A stretch of DNA of 46,351 bases from Helicobacter sp. 16-1353. Lineage in GTDB: Bacteria > Campylobacterota > Campylobacteria > Campylobacterales > Helicobacteraceae. Positions 1,545 to 18,223 of this stretch are shown here, piece by piece. Where the stretch lies: contig NZ_NHYM01000014.1 in assembly GCF_003288815.1 (NCBI RefSeq), forward strand, positions 1 to 46,351, read 5' to 3'. Below the pieces are notes generated by a model, which saw only the letters and a program-made list of their open reading frames with translations, had not been told where the DNA came from and searched no databases. The position numbers were made by a program, and so were the translations under genes. How positions within the stretch are numbered: position 1 is the stretch's first letter; each line of letters starts with the position of its first letter.

Positions 1545-1775
1545 ATGATGACAAAGAAAGAATTTTTAAATGAATTAAGTGAGTTGCTACAAAGGGAAGA
1601 GCCTTGTAATGAAAATGATATTTTAGAATCTTATGAAGAGTGGGATTCACTATCCAAAATGTCTTTAATGGCGTTTTTTGCTAAACATTTTTCTATTCAA
1701 TTGACATTAAAACAGCTTAATGAAGCAAAAAGCATATTAGATTTAATCGCATTGGCTAGTGGAAATATTAAATAG
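1545..1775 (+). CDS. Acyl carrier protein (first copy)
   Basis: Small acidic helical protein of 76 residues with the phosphopantetheine attachment motif EEWDSLSKM; the carrier serine is Ser35. It should carry the growing acyl chain for the ketosynthases and SDR reductases around it. Its ATG overlaps the stop of the full-length form of the upstream ketosynthase (TAATG), and AAGGAG lies just before it. An adjacent in-frame ATG at 1548 is an alternative start. It is dedicated to this operon and is not the housekeeping AcpP, because it sits among glycan genes and diverges from the usual DSLD-type motif. Confidence 0.88.
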   Translation: MMTKKEFLNELSELLQREEPCNENDILESYEEWDSLSKMSLMAFFAKHFSIQLTLKQLNEAKSILDLIALASGNIK

Positions 1776-1787: not shown

Positions 1788-2534
1788 ATGATAGCTTTTA
1801 ATAAAGAGCAGATTTATATAGTTACGGGTGCTAGTTCTGGGATAGGTAGAGCCACAGCTTTACTTTTAAATAATCTTGGAGCTAGTGTTATTGCTATAGC
1901 TAGAAATAAACAACGATTAGAATCCTTAAAAACAGATTGCAAGAATCCAAATAATATATATATTGAGATAAAAGACTTATGCGAGAATATTAATGATTTG
2001 CCTAACTATGTCAAATCATTAAAAGAAAAATATGGAAAATTCTTTGGAATGGTATATTGTGCGGGAGTTAGCGAACTCAAGCCAATTGCTATTACTGAAT
2101 ATGAAGATATGGAACGCGATTTTAATATTAATTATTATGCTCCTATCTTTATGACAAAAGGTTTGATTGATAAGCGAAATAATGTAGGGTATGGGACATC
2201 TATTGTTGCGATTTCATCTATTGCTGCTATTTGTTCGGATAAAGGACATAGTATTTATAGTGGAGCAAAAGCAGCTTTATGTGCTTCTATGAAGGTTATT
2301 GCAAATGAAAGCGTAAAAAATAAAATACGCGTAAATTGCATTCTACCCTCTATTATAGATACACCAATGACAAATGCTAGTGAGGAGGAGTATTTACGCT
2401 CTCAATTACATTTATATCCATTTGGCTTTGGTAATCCAAATGATGTGGCACATATGGCAATATTTTTATTATCTAATAAATCAGCATTTATTTCAGGGCA
2501 GAACTATATACTAGATAGTGGGGGTGTGAGATGA
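1788..2534 (+). CDS. SDR-family oxidoreductase, FabG-like (intact copy)
   Basis: Classical short-chain dehydrogenase of 248 residues. The NADP(H)-binding motif TGASSGIG is at residues 13-20, the active-site Ser is at 143/144 and the YSGAK motif gives Tyr157 and Lys161. In this setting it most likely reduces a 3-oxoacyl-ACP to the 3-hydroxyacyl-ACP. It lies 12 bases after the acyl carrier protein gene, with GGAAAATAGGGAA as ribosome site, and its stop overlaps the start of a tandem second copy. The two copies share near-identical ends and a divergent middle. The exact acyl substrate cannot be read from sequence. Confidence 0.87.
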   Translation: MIAFNKEQIYIVTGASSGIGRATALLLNNLGASVIAIARNKQRLESLKTDCKNPNNIYIEIKDLCENINDLPNYVKSLKEKYGKFFGMVYCAGVSELKPIAITEYEDMERDFNINYYAPIFMTKGLIDKRNNVGYGTSIVAISSIAAICSDKGHSIYSGAKAALCASMKVIANESVKNKIRVNCILPSIIDTPMTNASEEEYLRSQLHLYPFGFGNPNDVAHMAIFLLSNKSAFISGQNYILDSGGVR

Positions 2535-2709
2535 TAGCTTTTAATAAAGAGCAGATTTATATAGTTACGGGTGCTAGTTCTGGGATAGGTAGAGCCACAG
2601 CTTTACTTTTAAATAATCTTGGAGCTAGTGTTATTGCTATAGCTAGAAATAAACAACGATTAGAATCCTTAAAAGCAGATTGCAAGAATCCAAATAATAT
2701 ATATATTGA
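1788..2709 (+). repeat. 179-bp direct repeat at the 5' ends of the two SDR genes
   Basis: Bases 1788-1966 and 2531-2709 are identical except at 1932/2675 (A versus G). They cover the cofactor-binding halves of the tandem SDR genes. The near-identity beside a diverged middle suggests recent duplication or gene conversion. Confidence 0.9.
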
Positions 2710-3256
2710 AATTATGGATTTATGCACTCTGTATGGGGGGGGGGAATATGAAAAATTACATTCAAACCCTTAAGGAAAAATATGGAAAATTCTTTGGAAT
2801 GGTGTATTGTGCGGGAGTTGCAAATATTATGCCTACAAAATCACTAGATTATAAATCTATGAGAGCGGATTTTGATATTAATTATTTTATCCCTATATTA
2901 ATGATAAAAGAGATTGCTAAGAGAGCAAATAATGCAAATAAAGATACTTCTATAGTTATAATCTCGGCATTATCTAGCATTATGCCATTAAATGGAATGC
3001 TTGCTTATAGTGGAGCAAAAGCGGCTTTAAATGCATCTTGTAAAGCTATTAGTAAGGAATACTCTAATGTTGGAGTAAGGATTAATACCATATTACCATC
3101 GGATATAAACACTCCAATGAGCGAGAATATGGCATTTTTTGTAAAAAATCGCACACATTTATATCCATTTGGCTTTGGTAATCCAAATGATGTGGCACAT
3201 ATGGCAATATTTTTATTATCTAATAAATCAGCATTTATTTCAGGGCAGAACTATAT
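2408..3256 (+). repeat. 102-bp perfect direct repeat at the 3' ends of the two SDR genes
   Basis: Bases 2408-2509 and 3155-3256 are identical and encode the shared C-terminal region around HLYPFGFGNPNDVAHMAIF. Together with the 5' repeat they bracket the variable substrate-binding middle. Recombination between copies could delete one gene or swap the middles. Confidence 0.9.
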
Positions 3257-3281
3257 TGTAGATTCTGGAGAAATGAGTTGA
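2531..3281 (+). pseudogene. Second SDR-family reductase, phase-off by a G10 tract
   Basis: Tandem paralogue of the preceding SDR gene. The 5' part encodes the TGASSGIG motif and runs out of frame at 2735-2744, stopping at 2773. The downstream frame resumes with NMKNYIQTLKEKYGKF and contains the YSGAK catalytic motif. With nine Gs instead of ten, one 249-residue protein results, one residue longer than copy one. The substrate-pocket region differs from copy one, so it probably reduces a different acyl intermediate. The start overlaps the previous stop, and the stop overlaps the TTG of the acyltransferase gene. I treat it as a reversible contingency gene, not a dead one. Confidence 0.85.
2735..2744. 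repeat. G10 tract in the second SDR gene (off)
   Basis: Ten Gs between the Rossmann part and the catalytic part. Nine or twelve Gs join the frames; ten, as here, leads to a stop at 2773. Confidence 0.92.
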
Positions 3282-3925
3282 AAAATATATTTATTGTTGG
3301 TGGAGATGGTTTTGCTAGGGAAGTGTATTTTCATTTACAAAATTTAGCTGAATGTAATAAAGAAATTAGATTTGGTGGATTTTTGGGACATAATGGATAT
3401 GGTTGCAAGGTGGATTATAAAGATGTCCAACATTTATACATAGGTGAGGTAAGTGAATATACATTTAGGGATAATGATTATTGCATTATTGGAGCAGGAG
3501 ATTCCATCTTAAGAAAAAAGATTTATGATGATATTAAATCATTAGGTGGGAAGTTTTGGACATTGATTGCTAAAGGGATATATCTTGCTGATAGCTTTAT
3601 ATATGGCGAAGCAAATATATTTATCCCACCTTTTTATTCTACTGTAAATATAGATATTGGAGATGGAAATTTATGTAATGGAAATGTGAGTATAGGGCAT
3701 GATTGCAAGATTGGCAATTTTAATACATTTCTGCCTTCATCTTGTATTTTGGGTAATGTTAGAGTAGGGGACTATAACTCAATCGGCACTAATGCCATTA
3801 TCTTACCAAAGGCAAAAATTGGGAATCACAATATTATATGCCCACTATCTGTGATATATAAAGGCTGTGGAAATAATCTATATATGTTTGGCAATCCTGC
3901 AATAAAAATTGGCGAGGTGAAGTAA
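3278..3925 (+). CDS. PglD/NeuD-like hexapeptide-repeat sugar acyltransferase
   Basis: Protein of 215 residues with two parts: an N-terminal Rossmann-like sugar-nucleotide domain beginning KNIFIVGGDGFAREVY, and a C-terminal left-handed beta-helix of hexapeptide repeats containing the catalytic His in SIGHDCKIG. Family members N- or O-acylate nucleotide-linked amino sugars, usually from acetyl-CoA. Beside dedicated ketosynthases and carrier proteins, this one may instead transfer the acyl chain built by the operon, for example to the 4-amino sugar made by the minus-strand RmlA/RmlB/DegT genes. That transfer is an inference. The start is TTG, overlapping the upstream TGA as TTGA, which suggests translational coupling. 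Confidence 0.82.
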   Translation: MKNIFIVGGDGFAREVYFHLQNLAECNKEIRFGGFLGHNGYGCKVDYKDVQHLYIGEVSEYTFRDNDYCIIGAGDSILRKKIYDDIKSLGGKFWTLIAKGIYLADSFIYGEANIFIPPFYSTVNIDIGDGNLCNGNVSIGHDCKIGNFNTFLPSSCILGNVRVGDYNSIGTNAIILPKAKIGNHNIICPLSVIYKGCGNNLYMFGNPAIKIGEVK

Positions 3926-5064
3926 TGTCATTATCTTATTTTACAAATGTAAAAATTAAAGCCATTGTAGGCGTTGTTCCTGAGAATTTTATAGATATTG
4001 ATGATGAGAAAGAATATTATTATAGTCAAAAACATTTTGAAAGAAATAAAAAAATACTAGGATTAAAAAAACGACATATAGCTCCTTTAGGTGTTAGCAC
4101 ATTAGACCTTTGTGAAAGGGCAGCTAGAATCTTAATCCAAGAAAAAAATATTGATATTAGTAGTATAGATACGCTTATAGTGGCTTCTATTAATCACGAT
4201 TATAATGGAAGTTGTTCTGCTTGTATTATCCAAGGACATTTGAATCTATCTAATGAATGTGCGTGTTTTGATATGAGTGGATTGGGTTGCACAGATTTGA
4301 CTTATGCACTTTGGGTTGCTCACTCTATTATCCAATCAGGGGCTTCTAAAAAATGTTTATTATTAGAAGGCTCACTAAGTAGTGCAATATCTAATGTTGA
4401 AAATAGAAATTCTTCTATGTTGTTTGGTGATGGAGCTGCAGCAATATTATTAGAATACTCACCAAAAGAAACCAAATCATTTTTTCATTTGCAAAGCTAT
4501 GGTTGTGGTTGGAAGCATATCGTAACTCCTGCTGGTGGATTTAGGTTTCCTATTAGAAAAGATATTATTGATATGGAGATTAAAGATAATAACGACAATC
4601 CCATACATTTATGGGATTCTATAATGAATGGCATAGAAGTTTTTAAGTTTGCTATTTCCTCAGCTCCCGCTTCTATTGCAAAGATTTTAGAGTATGCAAA
4701 TATGGATTTTTCTCATATTGATTTTTTTGCAATACATCAAGCAAATGCACAAATAGTAAAAACAATCATAAAACACGCAGGTATTCCACCAGAAAAAGCA
4801 TCTAGTCAAACTTTTAGTAAATATGGCAATTGTGGTGGCACATCTGTGTTAATAAACTTTTGTGATGAAATGAAAGGTAAGGAATTTGAGCGGATTCTAT
4901 TCTCATCTTTTGGTGTTGGGCTTTCGGTTGGCAGTTGTATTTTAGAGATTAAATCAAGTGAGAATCTAGGGCTTTTCTACTATGAAACTCCTAGCGATGT
5001 TCAAAGTAGAGAGCAAATGATAAAAGAATGGGTTGATTTTATAAAAGGAGAAAATAATGATTAA
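3925..5064 (+). CDS. KAS III-type 3-oxoacyl-ACP synthase (second copy)
   Basis: Full-length FabH-like ketosynthase of 379 residues with an intact triad: Cys122 in GLGCTD, His271 in AIHQAN and Asn302 in YGNCGG. It is a diverged paralogue of the gene at 378 and has no homopolymer tract. Its C-terminal tail resembles the phase-restored tail of that gene. Two ketosynthases suggest either two chain types or sequential condensations. Its ATG shares a base with the upstream TAA, and the downstream carrier protein gene overlaps its end by eight bases. Starter and extender units are unknown. Confidence 0.88.
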   Translation: MSLSYFTNVKIKAIVGVVPENFIDIDDEKEYYYSQKHFERNKKILGLKKRHIAPLGVSTLDLCERAARILIQEKNIDISSIDTLIVASINHDYNGSCSACIIQGHLNLSNECACFDMSGLGCTDLTYALWVAHSIIQSGASKKCLLLEGSLSSAISNVENRNSSMLFGDGAAAILLEYSPKETKSFFHLQSYGCGWKHIVTPAGGFRFPIRKDIIDMEIKDNNDNPIHLWDSIMNGIEVFKFAISSAPASIAKILEYANMDFSHIDFFAIHQANAQIVKTIIKHAGIPPEKASSQTFSKYGNCGGTSVLINFCDEMKGKEFERILFSSFGVGLSVGSCILEIKSSENLGLFYYETPSDVQSREQMIKEWVDFIKGENND

Positions 5065-5290
5065 GAAATATCAAAAAGTATTTTGTGAAACCTTAGGTGT
5101 TAAACAAGAAGATTTAAAAACACTTAAATACCAAAGTGTAGAATCTTGGGATAGTGTAGGGCATATGGGATTAATAGCGGCATTAGAAGATGAGTTTGGC
5201 ATTATGTTTGAAACAGATGATATTATAGATTTTAGCTCGTTTGAAAAAGGCAAGGAGATTCTTGCAAAATATAATATCAATGTTAGGTAA
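5057..5290 (+). CDS. Acyl carrier protein (second copy)
   Basis: Acidic carrier protein of 77 residues with the attachment motif ESWDSVGHMG; Ser33 carries the phosphopantetheine. It overlaps the end of the second ketosynthase by eight bases and has AAGGAGAAAATA upstream. It presumably pairs with that ketosynthase, mirroring the ketosynthase/carrier pair at the start of the operon. Confidence 0.87.
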   Translation: MIKKYQKVFCETLGVKQEDLKTLKYQSVESWDSVGHMGLIAALEDEFGIMFETDDIIDFSSFEKGKEILAKYNINVR

Positions 5291-5294
5291 GATA

Positions 5295-5756
5295 ATGATA
5301 TTAAGAAATTTATATCCTTTAGAGATACAAAAATATCAGGCAAATCGCTATCCTTGGTTCTTTTTGGATATTGTAGAAGAAGTAATGCCCGGCAAATATG
5401 CCAATGGCTATAAAAATTTTACTTATAATGAATGGTTTTTCCCGCCACATTTTGAAGATAATCCTATAGTGCCGGGCTTTATCCTTACAGAATCGCTAGT
5501 GCAAATGTTTATAATGACATTTTTAACATTAGAAAATAAAGGCTCAATTAGCACGAATCTAATTAGTAGTAATAATAAATTTATTATAGAAATTAAGCCG
5601 GGCGATAGATTGGATATTAAAGCGAAGCTGGATTCTTATAAAAGGGGACTTGCTAAGGGTAGTAGTATAGGATATATAAAAGATAAAGTTGCTATAAAAT
5701 GTGAATTTATGGTAAGTGTCCCATCTATTATGAATCAATTTAGACCAAAAATATAG
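5295..5756 (+). CDS. FabZ-like hotdog-fold dehydratase or thioesterase
   Basis: Protein of about 153 residues, close to FabZ size. The hallmark HFEDNPIVPGFILTE matches the FabZ/FabA pattern HFxxxPxxPGxxxxE, with the histidine and glutamate expected at the active site. In this operon it should dehydrate a 3-hydroxyacyl-ACP to the enoyl form. No enoyl reductase is visible, so the product may stay unsaturated or be rehydrated. I chose the ATG at 5295, preceded by AGGTAAG, because the longer frame from 5241 runs far into the carrier protein gene. Confidence 0.8.
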   Translation: MILRNLYPLEIQKYQANRYPWFFLDIVEEVMPGKYANGYKNFTYNEWFFPPHFEDNPIVPGFILTESLVQMFIMTFLTLENKGSISTNLISSNNKFIIEIKPGDRLDIKAKLDSYKRGLAKGSSIGYIKDKVAIKCEFMVSVPSIMNQFRPKI

Positions 5757-5764
5757 GTAGTTTT

Positions 5765-7552
5765 ATGCGTGTGGCTGACTATATTATGCAAAGATTAGTT
5801 GATATTGATATATCTACTATATTTTTAGTAAATGGTAGGGGGAATCTTTTCTTATGCGATGCCTTAGCTAGAAATAAGAATCTAGATTATGTTTGCACTC
5901 ATCACGAGCAAGCTGCAGGATTCGGAGCGTTTGGATATGCAGTTGCAAATAAGAATATAGGCGTTTGTATGGTATCTAGTGGTTGTGCTAGCACGAATGC
6001 CATAACCCCATTATTATGTGCTTATCAAGATGAAGTGCCAATGATATTTATCTCAGGGCAAAATCACTTGAGAGAAACAATTCGTTTTTCTAAGATACCA
6101 ATAAGGACATTTGGGCAACAAGAATCTGATATTATAAGCATAGTATCGTCCATTACAAAATATGCCATTATGGTAGAAAATCCACAAGATATTGCCTATC
6201 ATTTAGATAGAGCTATTTTTGAAAGCTTAAGTGGGAGAAAAGGTCCTGTGTGGATAGATATTCCGCTTGATATTCAAAGTGCAATGATAGATTCTAGTGA
6301 ATTAAGAAGATTTATTCCAAATCAAGTCAAATCTATAGAATCTATAGAATCTAATATTAATATTTTATTTCAACTTTTAGAAAATTCTTCTCGCCCTATA
6401 TTGCTTATAGGAAATAGTTGTAGGGGTTTGGATAGTATTTATAAACTAGTAGAGAATCTAAAAATCCCAATAGTATATGAAAAATCAAGTGTGGATATTT
6501 ATGGTAGAAAAGAAATCCTATCTATAGGAGCGATAGGAACATTAGCAGCCAATAGAGCCGCTAATATGGCAATACAAAATGCAGATTTAGTTATTGCTAT
6601 AGGAGCTAGGCTTGATAGTTTTAGTATTGGTGATTCAAAGAAATTTGCAAGAGAAGCAAAAAAAGTTATTATAGATATTGATTGCAATGAATTAGCAAAG
6701 CTATCTTTTGATATTTCTTGTAAGATTATAGGAGATATTGGACATATTATAGATACTATTTTGATAAAAAATATCTATAAAGCTCCGCAAGAATGGATTG
6801 ATAAATGTTTGCATTATAAGAATATCTTTCCATTATATGAAAATTTTCATAAGCATAATAAAGAAAATGATAAATCTCCAAGAATTGATTTATATGAATT
6901 AGCTAATTGTATTAGTGGTATTTTGCCAAGTAATGCTATTGTAGTTTGTGATGCGGGATTAGAAGAGCTAATTATCCCAACAAGTATTGAATTTGGAAAA
7001 AACCAAATATGTTTAGAGCCTTTTTCACAAGGTTGTATGGGTGCAGCACTAAGCCTTGCTTATGGAGCATATGTAGCTAGTAATAGACCTGTAGTGGCGA
7101 TTATTGGTGATGGTTCTATAATGATGAATTTACAAGAATTACAAACAATAAAATATCATAATTTTCCCATTAAAATCATTATTTCTAATAATAATTGTTA
7201 TGCTGTTATAAGGAAGCGACAAAAAGAATTATTTCGTAATCGCACAATAGGAAATGACCCAAGCGATGGAATCTCTTGTCCAGATTTTGCTAAGGTCGCA
7301 GAATGTTTTGGAATAAAATATATGCATATCTTAGATTCTACGACATTAAAAGAAGATTTAAAAAAGCTTATATTGTCAAATGAAGCTGTGATTTGCGAGA
7401 TTGATACATTAGAGAATCAACACTATATTCATAATTCTTTTACTAAAGATTTGAATGGAAAAATAGTCCAAAGGGGATTAGAAGACCAATCCCCATTTTT
7501 AGATAGAGAATTATTTCTAAAAGAAATGATAATAAAACCAATAGACCAATAG
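5765..7552 (+). CDS. ThDP-dependent enzyme, acetolactate synthase/decarboxylase family
   Basis: Protein of 595 residues with the three-domain plan of this family: an N-terminal pyrimidine-binding domain with catalytic Glu48 in THHEQAAGFGAFGYA, a central domain, and a C-terminal diphosphate-binding domain with GDGS near residue 445 followed by NNNCY. Such enzymes decarboxylate 2-oxo acids or join them to aldehydes. No IlvN-like regulatory subunit or isoleucine/valine gene is near. The gene sits between a hotdog protein and a NeuB-like synthase, arguing for a biosynthetic carboligase or decarboxylase in glycan or lipid precursor synthesis. The substrate is not deducible. Confidence 0.82.
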   Translation: MRVADYIMQRLVDIDISTIFLVNGRGNLFLCDALARNKNLDYVCTHHEQAAGFGAFGYAVANKNIGVCMVSSGCASTNAITPLLCAYQDEVPMIFISGQNHLRETIRFSKIPIRTFGQQESDIISIVSSITKYAIMVENPQDIAYHLDRAIFESLSGRKGPVWIDIPLDIQSAMIDSSELRRFIPNQVKSIESIESNINILFQLLENSSRPILLIGNSCRGLDSIYKLVENLKIPIVYEKSSVDIYGRKEILSIGAIGTLAANRAANMAIQNADLVIAIGARLDSFSIGDSKKFAREAKKVIIDIDCNELAKLSFDISCKIIGDIGHIIDTILIKNIYKAPQEWIDKCLHYKNIFPLYENFHKHNKENDKSPRIDLYELANCISGILPSNAIVVCDAGLEELIIPTSIEFGKNQICLEPFSQGCMGAALSLAYGAYVASNRPVVAIIGDGSIMMNLQELQTIKYHNFPIKIIISNNNCYAVIRKRQKELFRNRTIGNDPSDGISCPDFAKVAECFGIKYMHILDSTTLKEDLKKLILSNEAVICEIDTLENQHYIHNSFTKDLNGKIVQRGLEDQSPFLDRELFLKEMIIKPIDQ

Positions 7553-7560
7553 GAGAAAAA

Positions 7561-8607
7561 ATGGCAGAAGTAATGTTAGATAATAATATATTAATAGGGG
7601 ATTATGCTAAGCCTTATATAGTAGCAGAGATTAATTCTAGTCATAATGGTAGTGTAGATAAAGCAAAGGAAATGATAGACAAAGCAAAGGAGATAAATAT
7701 CTCTTGCGTAAAGTTTCAATCTTGGAGTGCAAATAGCCTTTATTCAAATGATTATTACGATAAGAATCCTATACAAAAGCGTATTGTAGATAAATTTGCC
7801 CTTAGGGAAAATGAGTTACTGCAATTAGCCAAATATGCTAAATCCATAGGCATAGATTTTTCTTCAACGCCTTATTCTAATGATGAGGTTGATTTTCTAG
7901 TAGATGAATGCAAAGTGCCATATATCAAGGTTGCTTCGCAAGATATAAATACTCTCCCTTTTTTGGAATATATAGCAACAAAGAATAAACCCATTGTTTT
8001 ATCTACTGGAATGTCATCAATAGAAGAAATAAAACAAGCAGTAAATCTCATAGAATCCACTAGGAATTATAAAATTATTATATTGCATTGTGTATCGATT
8101 TATCCAACTAAGATAGAAAATGTGAATCTAAATAATATTGTAGGTTTGAGGGAATTATTTCCTAAATATCCTATTGGTTTTTCAGATCACACTATTGGGG
8201 TTGATATTGCCATTGCTTCAGTGGCTTTGGGCTGTGGATTGATAGAAAAACATTTTACACTTGATAATAAAAAAATGGGTATGGATAATAATATGGCGAC
8301 AGAGCCAAAAGATTTTTTAAGACTTATTAATGGTTGTAATGAAGTCTATCAAGCTATGGGAGATAAACATCGAATAATAACTAAGGAAGAATATGCATCT
8401 AGATTAAAAATGCGTAGAAGCATAGTGGCAAAAAGAGATTTGAAAAGAGGCGAGATTCTATCGTTGTGTGATTTGGATTTTAAGCGACCCGCAGAAGGTA
8501 TATCGCCTGATAAAATAGATGAGATTGTAGGATTTAGAATAAAGTCTAATATAAAAGCGGGTTATCTTATAAATAAAAAGGATATAGATATTGATAAGCA
8601 TATATAA
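7561..8607 (+). CDS. NeuB-family PEP-condensing synthase with SAF domain
   Basis: Protein of 348 residues resembling sialic, legionaminic and pseudaminic acid synthases. The TIM barrel carries IVAEINSSHNG near the N-terminus, followed by KFQSW, PYIKVASQD and GFSDHT; an antifreeze-like SAF domain occupies about residues 285-345. Family members condense PEP with the aldehyde group of an N-acyl hexosamine. No NeuC-, NeuA-, PseI- or LegF-like gene is in the window, so the acceptor is uncertain. The neighbouring LuxC-like reductase opens the possibility of a non-sugar aldehyde acceptor. A good AGGAGA precedes the ATG, and the end overlaps the next gene. Confidence 0.85.
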   Translation: MAEVMLDNNILIGDYAKPYIVAEINSSHNGSVDKAKEMIDKAKEINISCVKFQSWSANSLYSNDYYDKNPIQKRIVDKFALRENELLQLAKYAKSIGIDFSSTPYSNDEVDFLVDECKVPYIKVASQDINTLPFLEYIATKNKPIVLSTGMSSIEEIKQAVNLIESTRNYKIIILHCVSIYPTKIENVNLNNIVGLRELFPKYPIGFSDHTIGVDIAIASVALGCGLIEKHFTLDNKKMGMDNNMATEPKDFLRLINGCNEVYQAMGDKHRIITKEEYASRLKMRRSIVAKRDLKRGEILSLCDLDFKRPAEGISPDKIDEIVGFRIKSNIKAGYLINKKDIDIDKHI

Positions 8608-9298
8608 TATTGAAAATTTATCTATATATCGCTTTGTTTTTCGCTATATAGATTCCAATATGTATGTGATTATAGAGAATAATGAAGCATTGATTATAGA
8701 CCCACATTTTTCGAAATCTATGCAAAAATTATTATATGAAAATCAAATCAAAAATATCTTGGTTTTATTGACCCACGAGCATTATGACCATATTTGTGGC
8801 ATTGACTGGCTATCTAAGCATTTTAATATTACTCTTATATGTCAAAAAGCTTGTGCTAAATCCATCTTAAAAAACACTAGACCATTATTAATAAGCTTTA
8901 TTTTAGAGGAAAGAGATAGATTAAATGGAACAAATAATCTAGAGCATTTTAATAAAGAATATAAGGCATTTTCATATAACGCAGATATTATTTTTGATGA
9001 TAAATTTTTTTATAAATGGCAAAATCATCATTTAGCTTTTTATGCCACTCCGGGACACTCTTTTGGTAGTTGTTGTATTGTATTTGATGATAAGATAATC
9101 TTTAGCGGGGATTCTTTGTTTAAGGATATTCCTATTATTACTAGATTCCCGGGAGGAAATACTAAAGATTATAAAAATATTACTATTCCATTTTTAGAAT
9201 CCCTAGATAGGAATCTTATTGTATTGTCCGGACATAAAGAATCTTTTAGATTAATAGATGTATTTCTTGGGGAGAAAATCAATGTGGCTATTAGATAA
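8591..9298 (+). CDS. Metallo-beta-lactamase-fold hydrolase, glyoxalase II-like
   Basis: Protein of about 235 residues with the full di-metal site: THEHYDH (His62, His64, Asp66, His67), then GHSFGS, GDSLF and SGHKE. Glyoxalase II relatives hydrolyse thioesters, so in an acyl carrier protein operon it could release the finished acyl chain, the role LuxD plays in lux operons. That is an inference. The likely start is TTG at 8591 inside the NeuB-like gene, with AAAGGAT upstream; ATG at 8660 would cut off conserved N-terminal sequence. It overlaps the acyl ligase gene at its 3' end. Confidence 0.82.
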   Translation: MISIYNIENLSIYRFVFRYIDSNMYVIIENNEALIIDPHFSKSMQKLLYENQIKNILVLLTHEHYDHICGIDWLSKHFNITLICQKACAKSILKNTRPLLISFILEERDRLNGTNNLEHFNKEYKAFSYNADIIFDDKFFYKWQNHHLAFYATPGHSFGSCCIVFDDKIIFSGDSLFKDIPIITRFPGGNTKDYKNITIPFLESLDRNLIVLSGHKESFRLIDVFLGEKINVAIR

Positions 9299-10691
9299 AT
9301 ACGGAGATAAAATCGCTATTATAGAAAATGATTATCATATCACTTACTATATGTTACATATAATGTGTAATAACCTAACTAATAATATCAATAAAAGATG
9401 TTTAGTATTTTGTTTAAGCACTAATACATTAGGCTCACTTGTTGGGTATGTTGGATTTTTAAATGCCAATATTGTGCCACTAATGCTTAGAGCTGATATA
9501 GACCAAGAGAGTTTGGAAAGCTATATATCGCTATATAAGCCTGATTATATATATTTGCCAGATAATTTAGCATATAGCTTTATCAAAGATAATTATCAAA
9601 TCTGTTTTAATGCCCTAAATTACAATCTAGTAAAAACCCCATTTAATAATGCATATCAATTATATAATAACCTAAGCCTTTTACTCACCACTTCTGGCTC
9701 TACAGGTAGCTCTAAACTTGTTAGACAAAGCTATGAAAATATAGCCATAAACACTAATCAAATTATAGAATATCTAAAAATAGATTCTAAAGAATGTGCA
9801 ATTAGCACATTGCCTATGAATTATACTTTTGGATTATCTATTATCAATTCTCACTTACAAGCTGGTGCAAGTATAGTTTTAACCCAATATTCTATAATGC
9901 AAAAAGAGTTTTGGGAGATTATGAAAAAATATCATATTACTTCTTTTTCTGGTATTCCATATACTTTTGAGATATTAGATAAATTAAATTTTTTTAATTT
10001 TCAACTACCAAGTTTAAAAACGATTACACAAGCTGGTGGAAAGATTACAGAAAAACTACATAAAAAATTTGCTAAATGGGCGTTAGAAAATAATAAGGAT
10101 TTTATTGTGATGTATGGACAAACAGAAGCAAGTCCTAGAATGGGCTATTTACCCGCAAAAGATTCTATAAATAAAATAGGTGCAATGGGTATTGCCATCC
10201 CTAATGGAAGATTTGAGATTATAAATGAAAATGGTGATATTATAAAAGATGCAAATACCATAGGCGAATTGGTGTATTATGGGAAAAATGTAGCTTTGGG
10301 ATATGCAGTGAATGGAAATGATTTGAGTAAGAGTGATGAATTTTGCGGTGTATTACATACTAAAGATTTAGCAAAGAGAGATGAAGATGGTTTTTATTAT
10401 ATTGTTGGACGAAAGAATAGATTTTTAAAAATATTTGGCAATAGAGTGAATCTTGATGAGATGGAAAGATTGATTAAAGATAAATTTGCTTGTGAATGTG
10501 CCTGTGTCGGGGTAGATGATAAAATGGATATTTATATCACATCAAATAAAATTAAACAAAAGCTAATTGATTTTATTACCAAAAAGACAGGGTTAAATGC
10601 AATAGCATTTCGCATATTGGAAATTGATATTTTGCCAAAAAATGAATCTGGAAAGATTCTATATGCTAATTTAGGCAAAGAAAATGTTTGA
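9282..10691 (+). CDS. AMP-forming acyl-CoA/acyl-ACP ligase
   Basis: ANL-superfamily enzyme of about 469 residues. The phosphate-binding loop LLTTSGSTGSSK is near residue 135, the adenine motif MYGQTEAS lies mid-protein, HTKDLAKRDEDGF and GRKNRFLKIFGNRVN mark the hinge, and the catalytic lysine is in PKNESGKIL near the end. It should adenylate a carboxylic acid and pass it to a thiol such as CoA or the operon's carrier proteins. I chose ATG 9282, preceded by GGGGAGAA; a longer frame begins at 9258 but overlaps the upstream gene more. The acid may be a fatty, hydroxy or amino acid. Confidence 0.83.
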   Translation: MWLLDKYGDKIAIIENDYHITYYMLHIMCNNLTNNINKRCLVFCLSTNTLGSLVGYVGFLNANIVPLMLRADIDQESLESYISLYKPDYIYLPDNLAYSFIKDNYQICFNALNYNLVKTPFNNAYQLYNNLSLLLTTSGSTGSSKLVRQSYENIAINTNQIIEYLKIDSKECAISTLPMNYTFGLSIINSHLQAGASIVLTQYSIMQKEFWEIMKKYHITSFSGIPYTFEILDKLNFFNFQLPSLKTITQAGGKITEKLHKKFAKWALENNKDFIVMYGQTEASPRMGYLPAKDSINKIGAMGIAIPNGRFEIINENGDIIKDANTIGELVYYGKNVALGYAVNGNDLSKSDEFCGVLHTKDLAKRDEDGFYYIVGRKNRFLKIFGNRVNLDEMERLIKDKFACECACVGVDDKMDIYITSNKIKQKLIDFITKKTGLNAIAFRILEIDILPKNESGKILYANLGKENV

Positions 10692-11754
10692 TGATATATT
10701 TAACATAGAACCTTTTTGCTTAGATAGAGAGCAAAAAATGGCTTTTTTACTAAAGCATCAATTACATCTTACAACATTTCATTATCAACATTGCAAAGAA
10801 TATAGAAAAATCATTAATATCTTAAGGCTAGACTTAAATCGCATAAAATCCATAGAGCATATTCCATTTATTCCTGTGAGATTATTTAAAGAATATGTTT
10901 TATCTAGCATAGATAAAGAGAAGCAATATAAAATATTAACTTCATCTGGCACTAGCTCACAAGTAGTATCTAAGATTGTTTTAGATAGGCAATCAAGTCT
11001 AAATCAACAGAAACTTTTAAGTAAGATTGTTAGCAATTTTATAGGTGATACTAGAATGCCTATGATTATCATAGATAGTAAGAAAGTTATCACAAATAGG
11101 GCATTATTCTCAGCTCGTGGTGCTGGAATCTTAGGATTTTCTATATTTGGCACAGATAAGATATATGCATTAGATGATGATATGAATATTAATATTAATG
11201 AGATAAAAAATTTTTTAGATAAGCATAGAAATGAAAAGATTCTATTATTTGGATTTACTTTTATCATATGGCAATATTTTTATCAAAATCTACTAAAGCA
11301 TAATTATGATATTGATTTATCAAATGCCAATCTCATACACGGCGGTGGCTGGAAAAAGCTTATAACCCAAGCAGTATCAAAAAAAGAATTTAATAATTGT
11401 TTGAGAAATGTATGTGGATTAAGACATATTTATGATTATTATGGAATGGTAGAACAAATTGGTAGTATTTTTATGGAATGTGAATATGGGAATCTACACA
11501 CAAGCATATTTTCGGATATTATTGTAAGGAAAGCTAAGGATTGGTCGTTATGTGATTTTGGAGAAAAGGGCATTATTCAATTACTATCTTTATTGCCTAC
11601 ATCATATCCGGGACATTCTATATTAAGCGAAGATTGTGGTGTGATTTTAGGAGAAGATGATTGTTTATGCAAGAGAAAAGGGAAGTATTTTAGTATCTTA
11701 GGAAGAATACAAAATGCAGAGATTAGAGGTTGTGGGGATACCTATGAAAATTAA
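10684..11754 (+). CDS. LuxE-like acyl-protein synthetase
   Basis: Protein of 356 residues resembling LuxE, the ATP-dependent synthetase that activates a fatty acid and presents it to the LuxC reductase. Visible features are the adenylation-type loop ILTSSGTSSQ near residue 80 and GFTFIIWQYF, HGGGWKK and DYYGMVEQIG further on, in the order expected for the family. It overlaps the acyl ligase by eight bases and the LuxC-like gene by eleven. No luciferase genes are present, so the role is biosynthetic, supplying an acyl group for reduction to an aldehyde. Confidence 0.82.
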   Translation: MFDDIFNIEPFCLDREQKMAFLLKHQLHLTTFHYQHCKEYRKIINILRLDLNRIKSIEHIPFIPVRLFKEYVLSSIDKEKQYKILTSSGTSSQVVSKIVLDRQSSLNQQKLLSKIVSNFIGDTRMPMIIIDSKKVITNRALFSARGAGILGFSIFGTDKIYALDDDMNININEIKNFLDKHRNEKILLFGFTFIIWQYFYQNLLKHNYDIDLSNANLIHGGGWKKLITQAVSKKEFNNCLRNVCGLRHIYDYYGMVEQIGSIFMECEYGNLHTSIFSDIIVRKAKDWSLCDFGEKGIIQLLSLLPTSYPGHSILSEDCGVILGEDDCLCKRKGKYFSILGRIQNAEIRGCGDTYEN

Positions 11755-12910
11755 TTATATATTAGGAAATGAAGAGATTTATAATACTCCTATGGCTGTA
11801 TGTAGTGATGAGGTTTGCTCTTATTTGAGTGAGATTTCTACATTGATTTTCAAAAGTCCTTATACTAGAATTTATAAAGATTTAGCATCTCTTGGGTTTT
11901 GGTGTAGGAGTGCAAATATTCATACCATAAAATCTAATATTTTAAATATTCAAGCAAAATTAGGCAGAGGACTTTGTTTCCACATAGCACCCGCTAATAT
12001 TCCAATCAACTTTGCTTTTTCGTATTTTTTTGGTCTTTTAGCTGGTAATTCCAATATCGTTAGATTGCCTAGTAAGAGATATGAACAAAATATTATATTA
12101 TGCGAGATAATCTCTAATATAATTGATAAATATCCTAATGTAAAAAAAGCAACAACATTTGTAGAATATCCAAGAGAAAGTCAATGGAGTCAAGAATTTT
12201 CCACTATAGCAGATTGTAGAATGATATGGGGCGGAGATGAAACAATAAAATTATTAAAATCATATACAACAAAGCCTAGATGTGTAGATGTGTGTTTTTG
12301 TGATAGATATTCTATTTGTATTATCAATGGGGATTCCATAAAAAAGCTAGATGATACTGCATTAACATATCTTGCAAATAATTTCTATAATGATACATAT
12401 TCTATGGACCAAAATGCATGTTCATCGCCACAGATTGTGTATTGGATAAATGATGATATAGAATCTAGGGAAAGATTTTGGCGATTTATTGCTAAAAATG
12501 CTAATAAATATATTTTAAGTGATATTGTTGCGATAGATAAATTTACTTCTGTTTGCATTAATGCAATAGATTCTTATGAGGCAATAAAATCCTTTAAAAG
12601 AGATGAAAATATACTCTATAGAATAGAAATAAATAATGCCAATGCCATAAACCAAACGATGAGGGGAATTGGTGGATTATTCTATGAATGTGTGCTAAAT
12701 GATATTGATGAATTGTTTTTGTCGATTACTGAAAAATGTCAAACAATTACATATTTTGGTTTAGATTCTAAGGAGATTTTGAAAGGCGTTATTACAAATA
12801 ATATTCGTGGCATAGATAGGATAGTCCCTATTGGAAATGCTCTAGATATAAGCGTTAAATGGGATGGTTATGATATAATCTCTATGTTATGTAGAGAAAT
12901 CATTCTATAA
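11744..12910 (+). CDS. LuxC-like acyl reductase (aldehyde-forming)
   Basis: Protein of about 388 residues of the LuxC acyl-CoA reductase family, distantly related to aldehyde dehydrogenases. It shows GLCFHIAPANIPINFAFS and LLAGNSNIVRLPSK in the cofactor region, and the nucleophilic Cys226 in DQNACSSPQ. LuxC reduces an activated fatty acyl group to an aldehyde with NADPH. Adjacent LuxE and an ACP-based chain-building set point to aldehyde formation as the end of the fatty-acid part. I chose ATG 11744 (after GGGGATACCT), which overlaps the LuxE-like gene; a start 30 bases earlier is less likely. It is the last plus-strand gene and converges on the 13 kb methyltransferase. Confidence 0.83.
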   Translation: MKINYILGNEEIYNTPMAVCSDEVCSYLSEISTLIFKSPYTRIYKDLASLGFWCRSANIHTIKSNILNIQAKLGRGLCFHIAPANIPINFAFSYFFGLLAGNSNIVRLPSKRYEQNIILCEIISNIIDKYPNVKKATTFVEYPRESQWSQEFSTIADCRMIWGGDETIKLLKSYTTKPRCVDVCFCDRYSICIINGDSIKKLDDTALTYLANNFYNDTYSMDQNACSSPQIVYWINDDIESRERFWRFIAKNANKYILSDIVAIDKFTSVCINAIDSYEAIKSFKRDENILYRIEINNANAINQTMRGIGGLFYECVLNDIDELFLSITEKCQTITYFGLDSKEILKGVITNNIRGIDRIVPIGNALDISVKWDGYDIISMLCREIIL

Positions 12911-13908: not shown

Positions 13909-15042
13909 TTAAGATATTAAACATTTGATAATTTTATCTTGAGATTCTTGCTCCAAGCCCACATATATCGGTAAACAAAGGATTCTACTTGCTATATCTT
14001 GGCTTATTTTACAAGATTTTGCATTGGATTTATTGTAAAAGCTTAGTGTATCCAAACTAGGGTAAAAATATCTGCGTGGGAAAATATTATTACTATTTAG
14101 AATCCTAATTTTTTCCAATAAAGATTCCTCGCTCTCGCATAAAATAGGGAAATAATGGTAGTTGTTATTTATATTTGGATTTAGGATTTGAAACTCAAAA
14201 ATATCTTTTAAGTGTTTAAAGTAATACTCCCAAACTCTTTTCCTATCCTCTAAAATATAATGCATATCATCAAGCACACATAGTCCCATAGCTGCGTGGA
14301 ATTCGCTATTTTTAGCATTGATTCCCAAAACTTCTGGCATATTATTTTTAAGTCCAAAATTAATAATCGACTTTGCCTCATCTTTTAGGCTTTTATCCCT
14401 AAAGATTATCGCTCCGCCCTCAATGCTATGAAAAATCTTTGTAGCGTGAAAGCTAATCGTAGAAATATCGCCATAGCTAAAAACACTTTTATTTTTATAT
14501 TTCACGCCAAATGCATGGGCAGCGTCATAAATGATTTTTAGATGATGTTTTTTTGCGATTTGCTCTAGCTTTTCTAAATCACAAGTATTGCCAAATGTGT
14601 GAACAGGCAGAATAGCTTTGATATTATGAGTGATTTGGGAATCTATATTTGATTCTATTTTGGATTCTACACTAGATTTAGTAAGCATAGAATCTAGTAG
14701 AATCTCATCTATGCAAAGGCTTTTAGCATTTATATCACAAAATATCGGCTCAATATTCTCCCACATTACCGTATCTGTGGTCGCCACAAATGAAAAAGGC
14801 GTCGTTAGAATCTTATCTTTTGCTTTTAATCCAGCTAGTTTGTATGCCACTTGCAATGCTAAAGTGCCATTAGCTAGAAACAAAATATTATCCACGCCCA
14901 AAAACTCACAAAGCCGATTTTCTAGCTCAAGGCTCAAAGGTCCAAAATTCGTTAGATGATTATTTTCCCAGATTTTATCTAGATATTTAAAATACTTGTT
15001 TTTATCCGGCAAATAGGGCTTATTTACATTAATTCTTTGCAT
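13909..15042 (-). CDS. DegT/DnrJ/EryC1-family PLP sugar aminotransferase
   Basis: Protein of 377 residues with family hallmarks: FLANGTLALQVAYKL near the PLP phosphate site, DAAHAFGVKY with the cofactor-binding Asp, and SFHATKIFHSIEGGAI with the Schiff-base lysine. Such enzymes aminate the keto group of nucleotide-linked sugars. Following RmlA and RmlB in the same operon, the likely substrate is dTDP-4-keto-6-deoxyglucose, giving a viosamine- or Fuc4N-like 4-amino sugar. The amine would be a natural acceptor for the acyl group built by the plus-strand operon. Position of amination and stereochemistry cannot be read from sequence. There is a 76-base gap to the radical SAM gene. Confidence 0.86.
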   Translation of the reverse strand: MQRINVNKPYLPDKNKYFKYLDKIWENNHLTNFGPLSLELENRLCEFLGVDNILFLANGTLALQVAYKLAGLKAKDKILTTPFSFVATTDTVMWENIEPIFCDINAKSLCIDEILLDSMLTKSSVESKIESNIDSQITHNIKAILPVHTFGNTCDLEKLEQIAKKHHLKIIYDAAHAFGVKYKNKSVFSYGDISTISFHATKIFHSIEGGAIIFRDKSLKDEAKSIINFGLKNNMPEVLGINAKNSEFHAAMGLCVLDDMHYILEDRKRVWEYYFKHLKDIFEFQILNPNINNNYHYFPILCESEESLLEKIRILNSNNIFPRRYFYPSLDTLSFYNKSNAKSCKISQDIASRILCLPIYVGLEQESQDKIIKCLIS

Positions 15043-15118: not shown

Positions 15119-16138
15119 CTATAAAAATTCGCTATTTACAATATCCAAACTTAGTTTATCTAGGGTTTTATTAAAGCTATCATTTCTACACAAGATAGGG
15201 CATTCGTGGCAGTTGATATTATTATAAACTTCTCTAATCCTAGCTCCCCTCCAAATCGATTCCAAGCTCTGTTCCCTCAAATCGCCTAGAAAATGTCGCT
15301 CACTCTGTCTAAAGTGCAAACACGCCCACACCTTAAAATCCGCACTAATCACAGTGCTAAAAAACATTCCGTGGCATTTAGTATAGCCACGATTTTCTAT
15401 ATTTTGCATTTCTTTGTATTTTTGATAGCTTGCTACAATCTTAAAATTTTCATCTTCATATGTTGATTTTAGGGATTCTAATTTATCGCTAATATCTAAA
15501 GTATCGCCTGTAAATGGGCGGAATTGTGCGAAGTCCGCTCCCCTTTCTTTAACTATTTTTACAAAGTTTTCCATATCGCATTCTGTTAATTTACTTGTTA
15601 GGAATCCCACGCCAAAGCTAATCTTGCTTCCAATTTTTTGTTTTAGTTTGGCAAATTTCTCAATATTATCTAGTGTTTTTTGGAAATGCTGGGGTTTCAT
15701 TCCGTGAATCTTTAGATACATTTCTGGGCTTCCTGCATCAAGCGAGATTCTAAAATATTCTAAATTTGTGGCGATTAGCTCACATTTGGCATCATCAAGA
15801 TTCATTCCGTGCGAATTTAGCCCAATATTCATTCCAGCATTTTTGATAAGCCTAATAGCATATTCAAAATGTGGGCTTATAGTGGGCTCTCCACCACCGG
15901 ATAAAATCACGCCTTTATTATCCATATTTTTTAGATTTTCCACAACTATTTCAACTTGATTTTTGCTTAGCTCTGCGTTATTTTCATTATTACCACAACA
16001 GCCCGGGCATAAGTGATTGCATTTATTTGTTAAATCAAGCTCAGTTACAATTAGTGTTTTATGGGAGTTTAGAAAATAATCAATCTTATTTGTATAGCGG
16101 AGAATCTTTTCATTTGAATTAAAATTATTGATTTTCAT
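15119..16138 (-). CDS. Radical SAM protein with C-terminal extra cysteines (SPASM-like)
   Basis: Protein of 339 residues. CNHLCPGCC (CX3CX2C) binds the SAM-cleaving iron-sulfur cluster, GGGEPT follows, and a C-terminal region carries CHGMFF, ACLHF and CHECPILC, suggesting one or more auxiliary clusters. It lies between RmlB and the 4-aminotransferase, and its ATG overlaps the RmlB stop (ATGA). Radical SAM enzymes such as DesII act on dTDP-4-amino-4,6-dideoxyglucose, so a sugar substrate is plausible; peptide or lipid modification is an alternative. The 339-residue length is shorter than DesII-type enzymes. Confidence 0.83.
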   Translation of the reverse strand: MKINNFNSNEKILRYTNKIDYFLNSHKTLIVTELDLTNKCNHLCPGCCGNNENNAELSKNQVEIVVENLKNMDNKGVILSGGGEPTISPHFEYAIRLIKNAGMNIGLNSHGMNLDDAKCELIATNLEYFRISLDAGSPEMYLKIHGMKPQHFQKTLDNIEKFAKLKQKIGSKISFGVGFLTSKLTECDMENFVKIVKERGADFAQFRPFTGDTLDISDKLESLKSTYEDENFKIVASYQKYKEMQNIENRGYTKCHGMFFSTVISADFKVWACLHFRQSERHFLGDLREQSLESIWRGARIREVYNNINCHECPILCRNDSFNKTLDKLSLDIVNSEFL

Positions 16139-17346
16139 TTTCCACCGCCTATTAAGCGGAGATTTAAGAATGGAAAGTAATCTATAAATAAAAGAAGTGG
16201 ATTTTTAGAATCTAGGCGATTAGAATCTTGTGTGAATGTCGCGAATGATGAGAGAAATGCCACAAATGGTTTAAATAAAGCAAATAAAGCGAATCTAAAA
16301 GTAGGGATTCTATTTTTGCTACTCCCCCCCCCCATATATTTATTTAAAAAATAATTTATTGTTGTATGTAGATTTTCCTTTAGATTCCCATTTATTCTAA
16401 ATCCCATTTCACTAGCGATTTTAGTTGAATCTATCGCATATCGTTTGTCGTGTCCATATCTATCTTGCACGAATTTAATTTGATTTATATAGCTAGATTT
16501 ATCGCTCTTAGGTAGTAATCTATCAAGCATTTTGCAAATCATTTTTGCAATATCTATATTTCTTTTCTCGCACTCTCCGCCAATATTATATGTTTGTCCT
16601 ATTTTTCCATTATGATATGCCAAGTCAATTCCTTTGCAGTGGTCTTTTACATATAGCCAATCTCGCACATTTTTGCCATCGCCATAAATGGGAATGGGCT
16701 GTTTATTTATCGCATTTTTTATGATAGTTGGGATAAGCTTTTCATCGTGCTGTTTTGGACCATAGTTGTTTGAGCAATTTGTAATAATCGTATTTAATCC
16801 AAATGTTTTATTATATGCACGAACCAACATATCGCTTCCAGCCTTACTAGCGGAATATGGCGAGTTTGGCTTATATGGTGAGGTTTCACTAAAGCTACCT
16901 TTTTTGCCTAGTGAGCCATAAACTTCATCAGTTGAAATGTGGTGGAATCTAGCATTTTTATATTTTTCTTTTGTGTAAAATGGGCTTTTAAGCCAGTGAT
17001 TTTTCGCACATTCTAGTAGATTTTGAGTGCCATTTATATTTGTTTTGATAAAAATATTTGGCGATTTGATTGAGTTATCTACATGTGTTTGAGCTGCAAA
17101 ATGTATAACACCCATAATATTATATTCCTTAAATATAAACTCCACTAATTCCCTATTACAAATATCACCTTTGATAAATTTATGCCTTTTATTATCTAAG
17201 ATTCCATTTAGATTCCCCAAATCTCCTGCATATGTGAGTAAATCTAAATTTATTAAATGATAATTTTTATATTTCTCCAAAAAATATTCTATAAAATTTG
17301 AGCCGATGAATCCAGCTCCACCCGTAATTAATATATGCTCTCTCAC
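16135..17346 (-). CDS. rmlB: dTDP-glucose 4,6-dehydratase, phase-variable C-terminal extension
   Basis: NAD-dependent extended SDR converting dTDP-glucose to dTDP-4-keto-6-deoxyglucose. Motifs: GGAGFIGSNF at the N-terminus, STDEVYG with the catalytic Thr-Asp-Glu, and YSASK with Tyr and Lys. The start is GTG, one base after the RmlA stop. The catalytic domain ends near residue 338 at NYFLNKY, usual for the family. A G10 tract at 16324-16333 then leads into about 60 extra hydrophobic residues ending IGGGK. With 11 Gs the protein would end at once as MGGGE. The long form's stop overlaps the radical SAM start, so the tract may modulate translational coupling rather than enzyme activity. Confidence 0.93.
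   Translation of the reverse strand: MREHILITGGAGFIGSNFIEYFLEKYKNYHLINLDLLTYAGDLGNLNGILDNKRHKFIKGDICNRELVEFIFKEYNIMGVIHFAAQTHVDNSIKSPNIFIKTNINGTQNLLECAKNHWLKSPFYTKEKYKNARFHHISTDEVYGSLGKKGSFSETSPYKPNSPYSASKAGSDMLVRAYNKTFGLNTIITNCSNNYGPKQHDEKLIPTIIKNAINKQPIPIYGDGKNVRDWLYVKDHCKGIDLAYHNGKIGQTYNIGGECEKRNIDIAKMICKMLDRLLPKSDKSSYINQIKFVQDRYGHDKRYAIDSTKIASEMGFRINGNLKENLHTTINYFLNKYMGGGSSKNRIPTFRFALFALFKPFVAFLSSFATFTQDSNRLDSKNPLLLFIDYFPFLNLRLIGGGK
16324..16333. repeat. G10 tract (minus strand) at the end of the rmlB catalytic domain
   Basis: Ten Gs give the 403-residue form as written. Eleven end the protein after the tract, and nine give a different tail of about 36 residues. Confidence 0.92.
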
Positions 17347-17347
17347 A

Positions 17348-18223
17348 TTAGCCCTTTATTAAATCCATTAGATATTGTCCGTATTCACTTTTCTTAAGAC
17401 TTTCTATTCGTTTTAATAATATTTTCTCATCAATCCAGCCGTTTATATATGCGATTTCTTCCAAACAAGCGATTTTGTATTTTTGGCGATTTTCAATAGT
17501 GGCAACGAAATTTGACGCCTCCATCATAGATTCTGGTGTGCCTGCATCAAGCCAAGTAAATCCCCGCCCAAGTGCTCTTGCTTTCAATTTATGATTTTTA
17601 AGATACACTAGATTTATATCTGTTATCTCTAACTCGCCTCTTTGGCTTGGGGTGATATTTTTGGCGATTTCAAGGACATTATTATCGTAGAAATAAAGCC
17701 CCGTTAGAGCATAATTACTTTTTGGAGTAGATGGCTTTTCCTCTAGGCTAATTACATTGAAATCATTATCAAATTCCACTACGCCAAATCTATCTGGGTC
17801 TTTCACTGGATATGCAAAGGTAATCGCCCCGCCATCTTTTGGGTTTAAATTTACACATTCCTCTAATATAGGTCTAAATCCCTGCCCATAAAAAATATTA
17901 TCACCTAAAATAAGACTAGCAGAATCTCCCCCAATAAAATCCGCACCTAGTATAAATGCCTCTGCTAAGCCATTTGGTTTTTCTTGAATCTTATAGTCGA
18001 TTTTCATTCCCAAAAAATCGCCATTCCCAAGCAAATATCTAAATCGCTCAATATCGCGTTTAGTGATGATTAGTAGCACCTCTCTAATCCCTGCAATCAT
18101 CAAAACCGACAAAGGATACATAATCATCGGTTTATCATAGATTGGTAAAAGCTGTTTGGTTATGACTTGTGTTGTGGGGTAGAGCCTAGTCCCGCTACCA
18201 CCCGCTAAAATTATGCCTTTCAC
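17348..18223 (-). CDS. rmlA: Glucose-1-phosphate thymidylyltransferase
   Basis: Protein of 291 residues, normal for RmlA. The nucleotide-binding signature GGSGTRLYPTT is at the N-terminus, with KQLLPIYDKPM, LGDNIFYGQG, EEKP and WLDAGTPESM following. It makes dTDP-glucose from dTTP and glucose 1-phosphate, the entry step for the deoxysugar operon. It lies 39 bases after the FkbM gene and two bases before RmlB's GTG. No rmlC or rmlD follows, so rhamnose is not the product of this operon. Confidence 0.95.
   Translation of the reverse strand: MKGIILAGGSGTRLYPTTQVITKQLLPIYDKPMIMYPLSVLMIAGIREVLLIITKRDIERFRYLLGNGDFLGMKIDYKIQEKPNGLAEAFILGADFIGGDSASLILGDNIFYGQGFRPILEECVNLNPKDGGAITFAYPVKDPDRFGVVEFDNDFNVISLEEKPSTPKSNYALTGLYFYDNNVLEIAKNITPSQRGELEITDINLVYLKNHKLKARALGRGFTWLDAGTPESMMEASNFVATIENRQKYKIACLEEIAYINGWIDEKILLKRIESLKKSEYGQYLMDLIKG

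Follow-up and report, generated by a model that had tools for sequence, protein, structure and literature searches.

Why should a NeuB-family synthase be encoded between a thiamine diphosphate (ThDP) enzyme and a pair of LuxE- and LuxC-like genes? The question is raised by an operon of Helicobacter sp. 16-1353 (Campylobacterota), located on contig NZ_NHYM01000014.1 of assembly GCF_003288815.1, of which positions 1 to 46,351 constitute the stretch analysed here (the window). An original prediction, based on the sequence alone, proposed that NeuB condenses phosphoenolpyruvate (PEP) with an aldehyde made by the LuxC-like reductase, and that the ThDP enzyme decarboxylates the resulting 4-hydroxy-2-oxo acid. 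Our analysis suggests that the probable product of the operon is an unusual group, derived from an acid, for an amino sugar of the cell surface, with NeuB using the LuxC aldehyde. The pairing of NeuB with Lux genes is right and general, the proposed reading is strongly supported by comparison among genomes, and the chemistry is plausible by structural, genomic and literature analogies.

The operon runs from 378 to 12910 on the + strand, with tightly packed and sometimes overlapping genes, in the order KASIII, acyl carrier protein (ACP), short-chain dehydrogenase/reductase (SDR), broken SDR, NeuD-type acyltransferase, KASIII, ACP, FabZ-like hotdog, ThDP enzyme, NeuB, metallo-beta-lactamase (MBL) hydrolase, AMP-ligase, LuxE and LuxC. 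As predicted, the LuxC/LuxE pair and the ThDP enzyme thus share the operon and strand of NeuB. Two ACPs (1545-1775 and 5057-5290) and the FabZ-like gene had not been listed. The part of the operon that surrounds NeuB is composed of:

5057..5290, + strand, acyl carrier protein 2, the module ACP (PF00550, 21.1 bits)
about 5295..5756, + strand, FabZ-like hotdog dehydratase (PF07977; catalytic His52/Glu66)
5765..7552, + strand, ThDP enzyme, a YerE/JanthE-like carboligase-decarboxylase (PF02775/02776/00205)
7561..8607, + strand, NeuB-family PEP-dependent synthase of a Lux-associated subfamily (PF03102, 246 bits; SAF domain PF08666, 46 bits)
8591..9298, + strand, MBL-fold hydrolase (PF00753)
9258..10691, + strand, AMP-forming acyl ligase (PF00501)
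10684..11754, + strand, LuxE-like acyl-protein synthetase (PF04443, 186 bits; C-terminal Cys350)
11714..12910, + strand, LuxC-like acyl reductase (PF05893, 80.5 bits; catalytic Cys236)

Functional residues of these partners are conserved across related loci: the attachment Ser33 of the module ACP (72/72), the catalytic His (54/55) and Glu (55/55) of the FabZ-like protein, E48, GDG and N476 of the ThDP enzyme (invariant among 66), Lys466 of the AMP-ligase (all 66 aligned), the C-terminal Cys of LuxE (65/65) and the catalytic Cys of LuxC (66/66). LuxC and LuxE score below the curated bioluminescence equivalog cut-offs (73.9 against 550 and 40.2 against 750).

An alignment of four NeuBs from such operons, with no Lux sequence in the query, recruited 80 loci (numbered L below) from 84,980 species genomes. 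They span about 11 phyla, including Pseudomonadota, Campylobacterota, Bacillota, Bacteroidota, Spirochaetota and Nitrospirota, with further representatives in Melainabacteria, Elusimicrobiota, Bdellovibrionota, Thermodesulfobacteriota and SAR324, and the NeuB of the window falls within this subfamily with 99/99 support. Among the 59 complete loci, which extend at least 5 kb on each side of NeuB, the AMP-ligase and LuxE are present in all 59, LuxC and ACP in 58 each, the ThDP enzyme in 51 and FabZ in 50. LuxE and NeuB lie on the same strand in 66 of 68 pairs. In 69 of 70 loci no more than 200 bp separate NeuB from the ThDP gene, which in 62 is directly preceded by FabZ. FabZ is likewise missing from the eight complete loci without the ThDP enzyme, most of which have an SDR adjoining NeuB. 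Aminotransferases (47/80) and acyltransferases (61/80) are frequent neighbours. Within Campylobacterales, a LuxC like that of the window occurs in only 10 of 349 genomes, one of which (G134, locus L019) carries a compact GNAT-ACP-FabZ-ThDP-NeuB-AMP-ligase-LuxE-LuxC operon beside selD. No relatives were found in a scan of viral contigs, and a plasmid search returned only ordinary NeuB/PseI proteins at about 33%. In the open-access literature, outside which most subscription journals lie, we found no paper that places NeuB and LuxC/LuxE in a common module.

The NeuB-LuxE pairing was checked independently in 295 Lachnospirales genomes, of which 17 encode LuxE and 90 encode NeuB-family proteins. 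Both members of the NeuB subfamily found there (58-100% identical to the query) lie less than 6 kb from LuxE, and none of the roughly 100 other NeuB-family proteins in this order has a LuxE within 10 kb. Among the 17 LuxE genomes, ten pair LuxE/LuxC with an SDR and a split transketolase, three have LuxE amid acyl-CoA genes, two have NeuB and two were left unassigned. The transketolase arrangement also occurs in three Campylobacterota (L016-L018), and in L147 it stands in a CDP-sugar background shared with Chromobacterium L093, which carries FabZ-ThDP-NeuB. Loci with split transketolase, SDR, ACP, AMP-ligase, LuxE and LuxC, all without NeuB, are L016 (9928-11468), L017, L018, L138-L148 and L150; they may represent a sister module with its own product. 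Transketolases and NeuB alike add carbon to an aldehyde acceptor, so that the reading which most simply covers both is a supply of this aldehyde by LuxE/LuxC. The Lux genes would then be common to these loci, with NeuB among their consumers, since Lux loci without NeuB mostly carry the SDR and split transketolase. The dependence is one-sided, NeuB requiring Lux and Lux not requiring NeuB, which favours, without proving, an action of NeuB after LuxC.

The NeuB protein is a member of the NeuB superfamily, with a TIM barrel, an SAF domain and the catalytic residues. Its structural model, of predicted local distance difference test score 94.4, has a template modelling (TM) score of 0.91 to Neisseria meningitidis NeuB/SiaC (1XUU/1XUZ; 33% identity), and the protein falls below the curated cut-offs of both the NeuB family TIGR03569 (307 against 399.65) and the PseI family TIGR03586 (254 against 340.25). 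We compared the pocket over 83 subfamily members, using residue roles from PMC6795526 and PMC7371886. The PEP, metal and catalytic residues (E25, K53, Q55, K129, S132, Y186, S213, H215, E234 and H236) are invariant. In contrast to the meningococcal enzyme, the loop governing specificity for C4-C6 of the sugar has lost residues 76-80 in 82 of 83 members; further changes affect the distal sugar wall (N74 to A/S/Q, F112 to Y, N184 to S); GPD is replaced by GMDN; and position 133, which governs C2 specificity, is M in 80 members and Q in three, the window's among them, in place of G or F. The partners differ as well, Lux/ACP genes being obligate and NeuA/NeuC lacking. The sole loop-bearing member, L136, stands beside a PseF-like CMP-transferase without Lux, and a related NeuB, L155, likewise has the loop and no Lux.

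The absence of a CMP-transferase or epimerase/hydrolase partner, noted in the original prediction, holds for the operon, and a CMP-transferase occurs in only 4 of the 80 loci. Genome-wide, the only CTP_transf_3 proteins are PseF and KdsB, and the only Epimerase_2 protein is a non-hydrolysing WecB (444 bits, against 112 for NeuC), so that no NeuC was found in the genome. The one other NeuB-family protein is a true PseI (454 bits, above cut-off), beside PseF, PseG and PseH; PseC, above its own cut-off, is also encoded. A pathway elsewhere in need of this NeuB had been named as a possible refutation. Because PseI accompanies PseF/G/H, NeuC is absent and PseF and KdsB are the only CMP-transferases, no nonulosonate pathway in this genome lacks a synthase, and a pseudaminic acid pathway missing its own is ruled out.

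The ThDP enzyme provides a second line of argument. Its best match in the Protein Data Bank is JanthE (8rph), at 287 bits, while acetolactate synthase reaches 184 bits; a housekeeping acetolactate synthase is therefore unlikely. JanthE accepts 4-hydroxy-2-oxovalerate (PMC12188165), and ErwE favours 4-hydroxy-2-oxo acids above pyruvate (PMC12247030); such acids are those expected from PEP and a short aldehyde. The window enzyme is about 32% identical to the YerE-like carboligases (YerE, ErwE, JanthE) and forms a separate group. YerE-type loci carry RfbF/G/H and no Lux block, whereas the operon lacks these genes for a CDP-3,6-dideoxy-4-ketohexose acceptor, the window having RmlA/RmlB instead; among the 80 relatives, RfbF occurs in 14 and RfbG in 10. 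A general role for the ThDP enzyme in branching a CDP-4-keto-3,6-dideoxyhexose is not supported, as most loci have no RfbH and many have a 4-aminotransferase. None of 12 loci with sister ThDP enzymes contains the Lux block. In one sister locus, L054, three consecutive genes encode an acetylating acetaldehyde dehydrogenase, DmpG and the ThDP enzyme, the first two above curated cut-offs, and other sister loci have further aldolases of the 4-hydroxy-2-oxo-acid type near the ThDP gene (HMGL-like in L046 and L052, HpcH/HpaI in L049 and L050). L054 thus repeats, with unrelated proteins, the logic of an acyl reductase followed by an aldol-type synthase and a ThDP enzyme. DmpF-DmpG likewise join an aldehyde from an acyl reductase to a C3 unit to form a 4-hydroxy-2-oxo acid, although from acetyl-CoA and pyruvate instead of LuxE-bound acyl and PEP.

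Several gene arrangements around the module are recorded here as side observations. Beside the NeuB module, two Rhodocyclaceae loci (L120 1-4729, L126 1-4709) have both an RfbH gene at full strength (46%) and another YerE-like ThDP gene, with a weak NeuB-like match (23-25%) between them. Helicobacter labetoulli L082 (1136-2720) has three FabZ-like genes in tandem before ThDP, and several Lachnospiraceae loci carry two or three. Two recurrent families (L076 12804-13820 and L067 3424-4209, in 8 and 10 loci) are acyltransferase-like by appearance only and had no Pfam or NCBIfam match.

Gene content, conservation, intact catalytic residues and pocket changes are observed; the substrates throughout, the sequence of reactions and the last linkage in the following pathway are what we infer. 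The AMP-ligase would activate an acid to be carried by ACP, where KASIII, SDR and FabZ can shape it; an origin in fatty-acid material, as first proposed, fits these genes without pinning down the particular acid. The MBL hydrolase, a proposed acyl-ACP thioesterase, would release the acid. LuxD holds a comparable position in light-producing bacteria, and position suggests a LuxD-like role for this hydrolase and for the type-II thioesterase found elsewhere (12 and 10 loci, never both). LuxE would then re-activate the acid for reduction by LuxC to the aldehyde, to which NeuB would add C3 of PEP, yielding a 4-hydroxy-2-oxo acid and phosphate. In loci that have both a YerE-like ThDP enzyme and FabZ, such as this one, the 2-oxo acid would be the likely decarboxylative donor for further C-C coupling. 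This step of the original prediction gains from the known YerE-like donors; decarboxylation is however optional, because ThDP and FabZ are missing from 8 of 59 complete loci. There, the SDR beside NeuB may reduce the product to a 2,4-dihydroxy acid, and an L-lactate-dehydrogenase-like protein in six loci would fit 2-oxo acid reduction. Finally, a NeuD or GNAT acyltransferase would place the group on a 4-amino-4,6-dideoxyhexose, made here by RmlA-RmlB-DesI.

This last step has precedents. In Vibrio cholerae O1, the AMP-ligase WbeL and LuxE-domain RfbN handle the tetronate acid, which is N-acylated on a 4-amino-4,6-dideoxyhexose (PMC4772473, PMC3441752). The window similarly places ACP, AMP-ligase and LuxE/LuxC near RmlA, RmlB, DesI-like and NeuD genes. 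Comparing gene descriptions, not sequences, the module resembles tetronate synthesis with an added chain extension. RfbK is said (Morona, 1995) to be an ACP and RfbN to be LuxC-like as well; to our knowledge the O1 system has no NeuB, ThDP enzyme or FabZ and no PEP chain extension. By analogy with O1, the aminotransferases and acyltransferases near the loci point to an N-acyl amino sugar, and an acyl or branch group on an amino sugar is a more likely product than the long polyhydroxylated chain first envisaged. Flagellin glycosylation islands of Aeromonas group II and enterobacteria share ACP, 3-oxoacyl-ACP reductase, AMP-synthetase, luxE and luxC (PMC7874193, PMC4875605), a core also found in L020-L023, but have Pse genes instead of the NeuB subfamily and neither ThDP enzyme nor FabZ.

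Some observations weigh against the use of a LuxC aldehyde by NeuB. Arg314 is essential and contacts the N-acetyl group of N-acetylmannosamine (PMC6795526, PMC7371886), and it is kept in 83/83 members as well as in PseI. Conserved hexosamine-binding residues had been named in advance as contrary evidence, and the outcome is mixed: the sugar side of the pocket is remodelled (N74, F112, G133, N184 and loop 76-80), whereas Arg314 is kept and forms the chief objection to a plain alkyl aldehyde. At this contact the acceptor may carry an amide or a hydroxyl on C2 or C3. Methionine at the C2-specificity position is shared by the CMP-associated L136 and L155; it is not Lux-specific, and Met133 was dropped as a marker of the Lux type. 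The four seed NeuBs behind the 80 loci came themselves from such operons. Lastly, the proposed pathway explains neither the role of FabZ nor the acceptor of the ThDP enzyme, its substrates are inferred only, and gene neighbourhood cannot order steps, so the NeuB product could itself be a substrate of the AMP-ligase or of LuxE.

This reversed order is an unlikely alternative: NeuB would form a 2-oxo-3-deoxy acid using a different aldehyde, and AMP-ligase, ACP, LuxE and LuxC would activate and reduce that acid. It agrees with the constant presence of the same gene block and with the action of AMP-ligase and LuxE on carboxylic acids such as the NeuB product, but leaves the NeuB aldehyde without a source, and the Lux block is also found apart from this NeuB, together with transketolase, inside Pse islands or among acyl-CoA genes, so its input acid need not be NeuB's. 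We find it somewhat more doubtful that NeuB is an ordinary nonulosonic-acid synthase acting on an N-acyl hexosamine while the Lux/ACP block separately makes an acyl decoration. Arg314, the entire PEP site, the TM-score to the meningococcal enzyme and the nearby NeuD acyltransferase would all suit such a synthase; the sub-cut-off scores, the pocket changes with their deleted C4-C6 loop, the rarity of CMP-transferases, the Lux genes of all 59 complete loci, and a genome without NeuC and already equipped with PseI led us to reject a sialic, legionaminic or pseudaminic acid synthase as the leading view. Least likely of all is that the ThDP enzyme, encoded directly 5' of NeuB, consumes the LuxC aldehyde to form a pyruvate-derived acyloin, with NeuB acting elsewhere in the pathway: YerE-like enzymes do couple pyruvate to carbonyl acceptors (PMC12247030), yet eight complete loci hold NeuB and Lux without any ThDP enzyme.

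The remaining genes of the operon, and those 3' of it on the - strand (a methyltransferase, a DesI-like 4-aminotransferase, a radical SAM protein, RmlB and RmlA), include:

378..1451, + strand, KASIII-like beta-ketoacyl-ACP synthase a (PF08545/PF08541)
1545..1775, + strand, acyl carrier protein 1 (small ORF with an ACP-like ..EWDSLSKM.. motif)
1788..2534, + strand, SDR ketoreductase 1, FabG-like (PF13561/PF00106)
2531..3281, + strand, second SDR, frame interrupted at poly-G tract 2735-2744 (ORF reading and tract scan)
3278..3925, + strand, NeuD/PglD/VioB-type acyltransferase (TIGR03570, 115 bits, under the cut-off of 160.8)
3925..5064, + strand, KASIII-like beta-ketoacyl-ACP synthase b (PF08541/PF08545)
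13909..15042, - strand, DegT/DesI-like sugar 4-aminotransferase (TIGR04427, 241 bits, under the cut-off of 650)
16135..17346, - strand, RmlB-like dTDP-glucose 4,6-dehydratase (PF16363; poly-G tract 16324-16333 in its tail)
17348..18223, - strand, RmlA-like glucose-1-phosphate thymidylyltransferase (ORF reading)

The window begins at contig base 1, and genes 5' of 378 are out of view. ACP 1 had no match in Pfam and NCBIfam searches; similar genes adjoin KASIII in six related loci. The NeuD-type protein is a candidate for the final N-acyltransferase, and the DesI-like aminotransferase a candidate for making the acceptor amine. The RmlA-like protein is 61-62% identical to homologues adjoining RmlB in other loci.

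Eleven poly-G/poly-C tracts of 8-12 bases lie within surface-glycan genes, several at broken frames (1423-1433, 2735-2744, 13544-13554, 16324-16333, 19222-19230, 32486-32494, 33458-33468, 34907-34918, 36538-36546, 37297-37304 and 39480-39489), and overlapping 8-mers of this kind number 33 in the window against 0.13 expected. They are likely phase-variable switches, including those of KASIII-like synthase a, whose poly-C tract 1423-1433 is close to its 3' end, and of the second SDR. Further along, positions 34370-40353 hold four to five tandem paralogues of about 310-415 amino acids with a GGHGLGxNxFxxYL-like start, sulfotransferase- or glycosyltransferase-like in appearance, adjoining an APS-kinase-like gene (40369-40902). 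Positions 28297-33470 (inositol-monophosphatase-like, nucleotidyltransferase, class-I glutamine-amidotransferase-like and PEP-utilising, PPDK-like genes, with two methyltransferases) may encode another unusual pathway, involving a sugar or phosphorus.

Whether the operon exemplifies a widespread PEP-dependent chain extension, in which LuxC acyl aldehydes replace sugars, either a YerE-like carboligase or a reductase receives the 4-hydroxy-2-oxo acids, and sugar-like groups arise from acyl-ACP and PEP across about 11 phyla, seems to us evenly balanced. If true, a non-sugar acceptor class would be added to the NeuB/KDO8P/DAHP synthase superfamily, fatty-acid-type and sugar-acid chemistry would be united in one pathway, and a source would be suggested for the 4-hydroxy-2-oxo acids required by ErwE-type enzymes. 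Many 'N-acetylneuraminate synthase' annotations, judging from the 80 loci examined, would receive another function, and nonulosonate predictions resting on a NeuB match alone would need correction. What luxE/luxC do in loci for surface glycans, a question since V. cholerae O1 and Aeromonas, would become directly testable.

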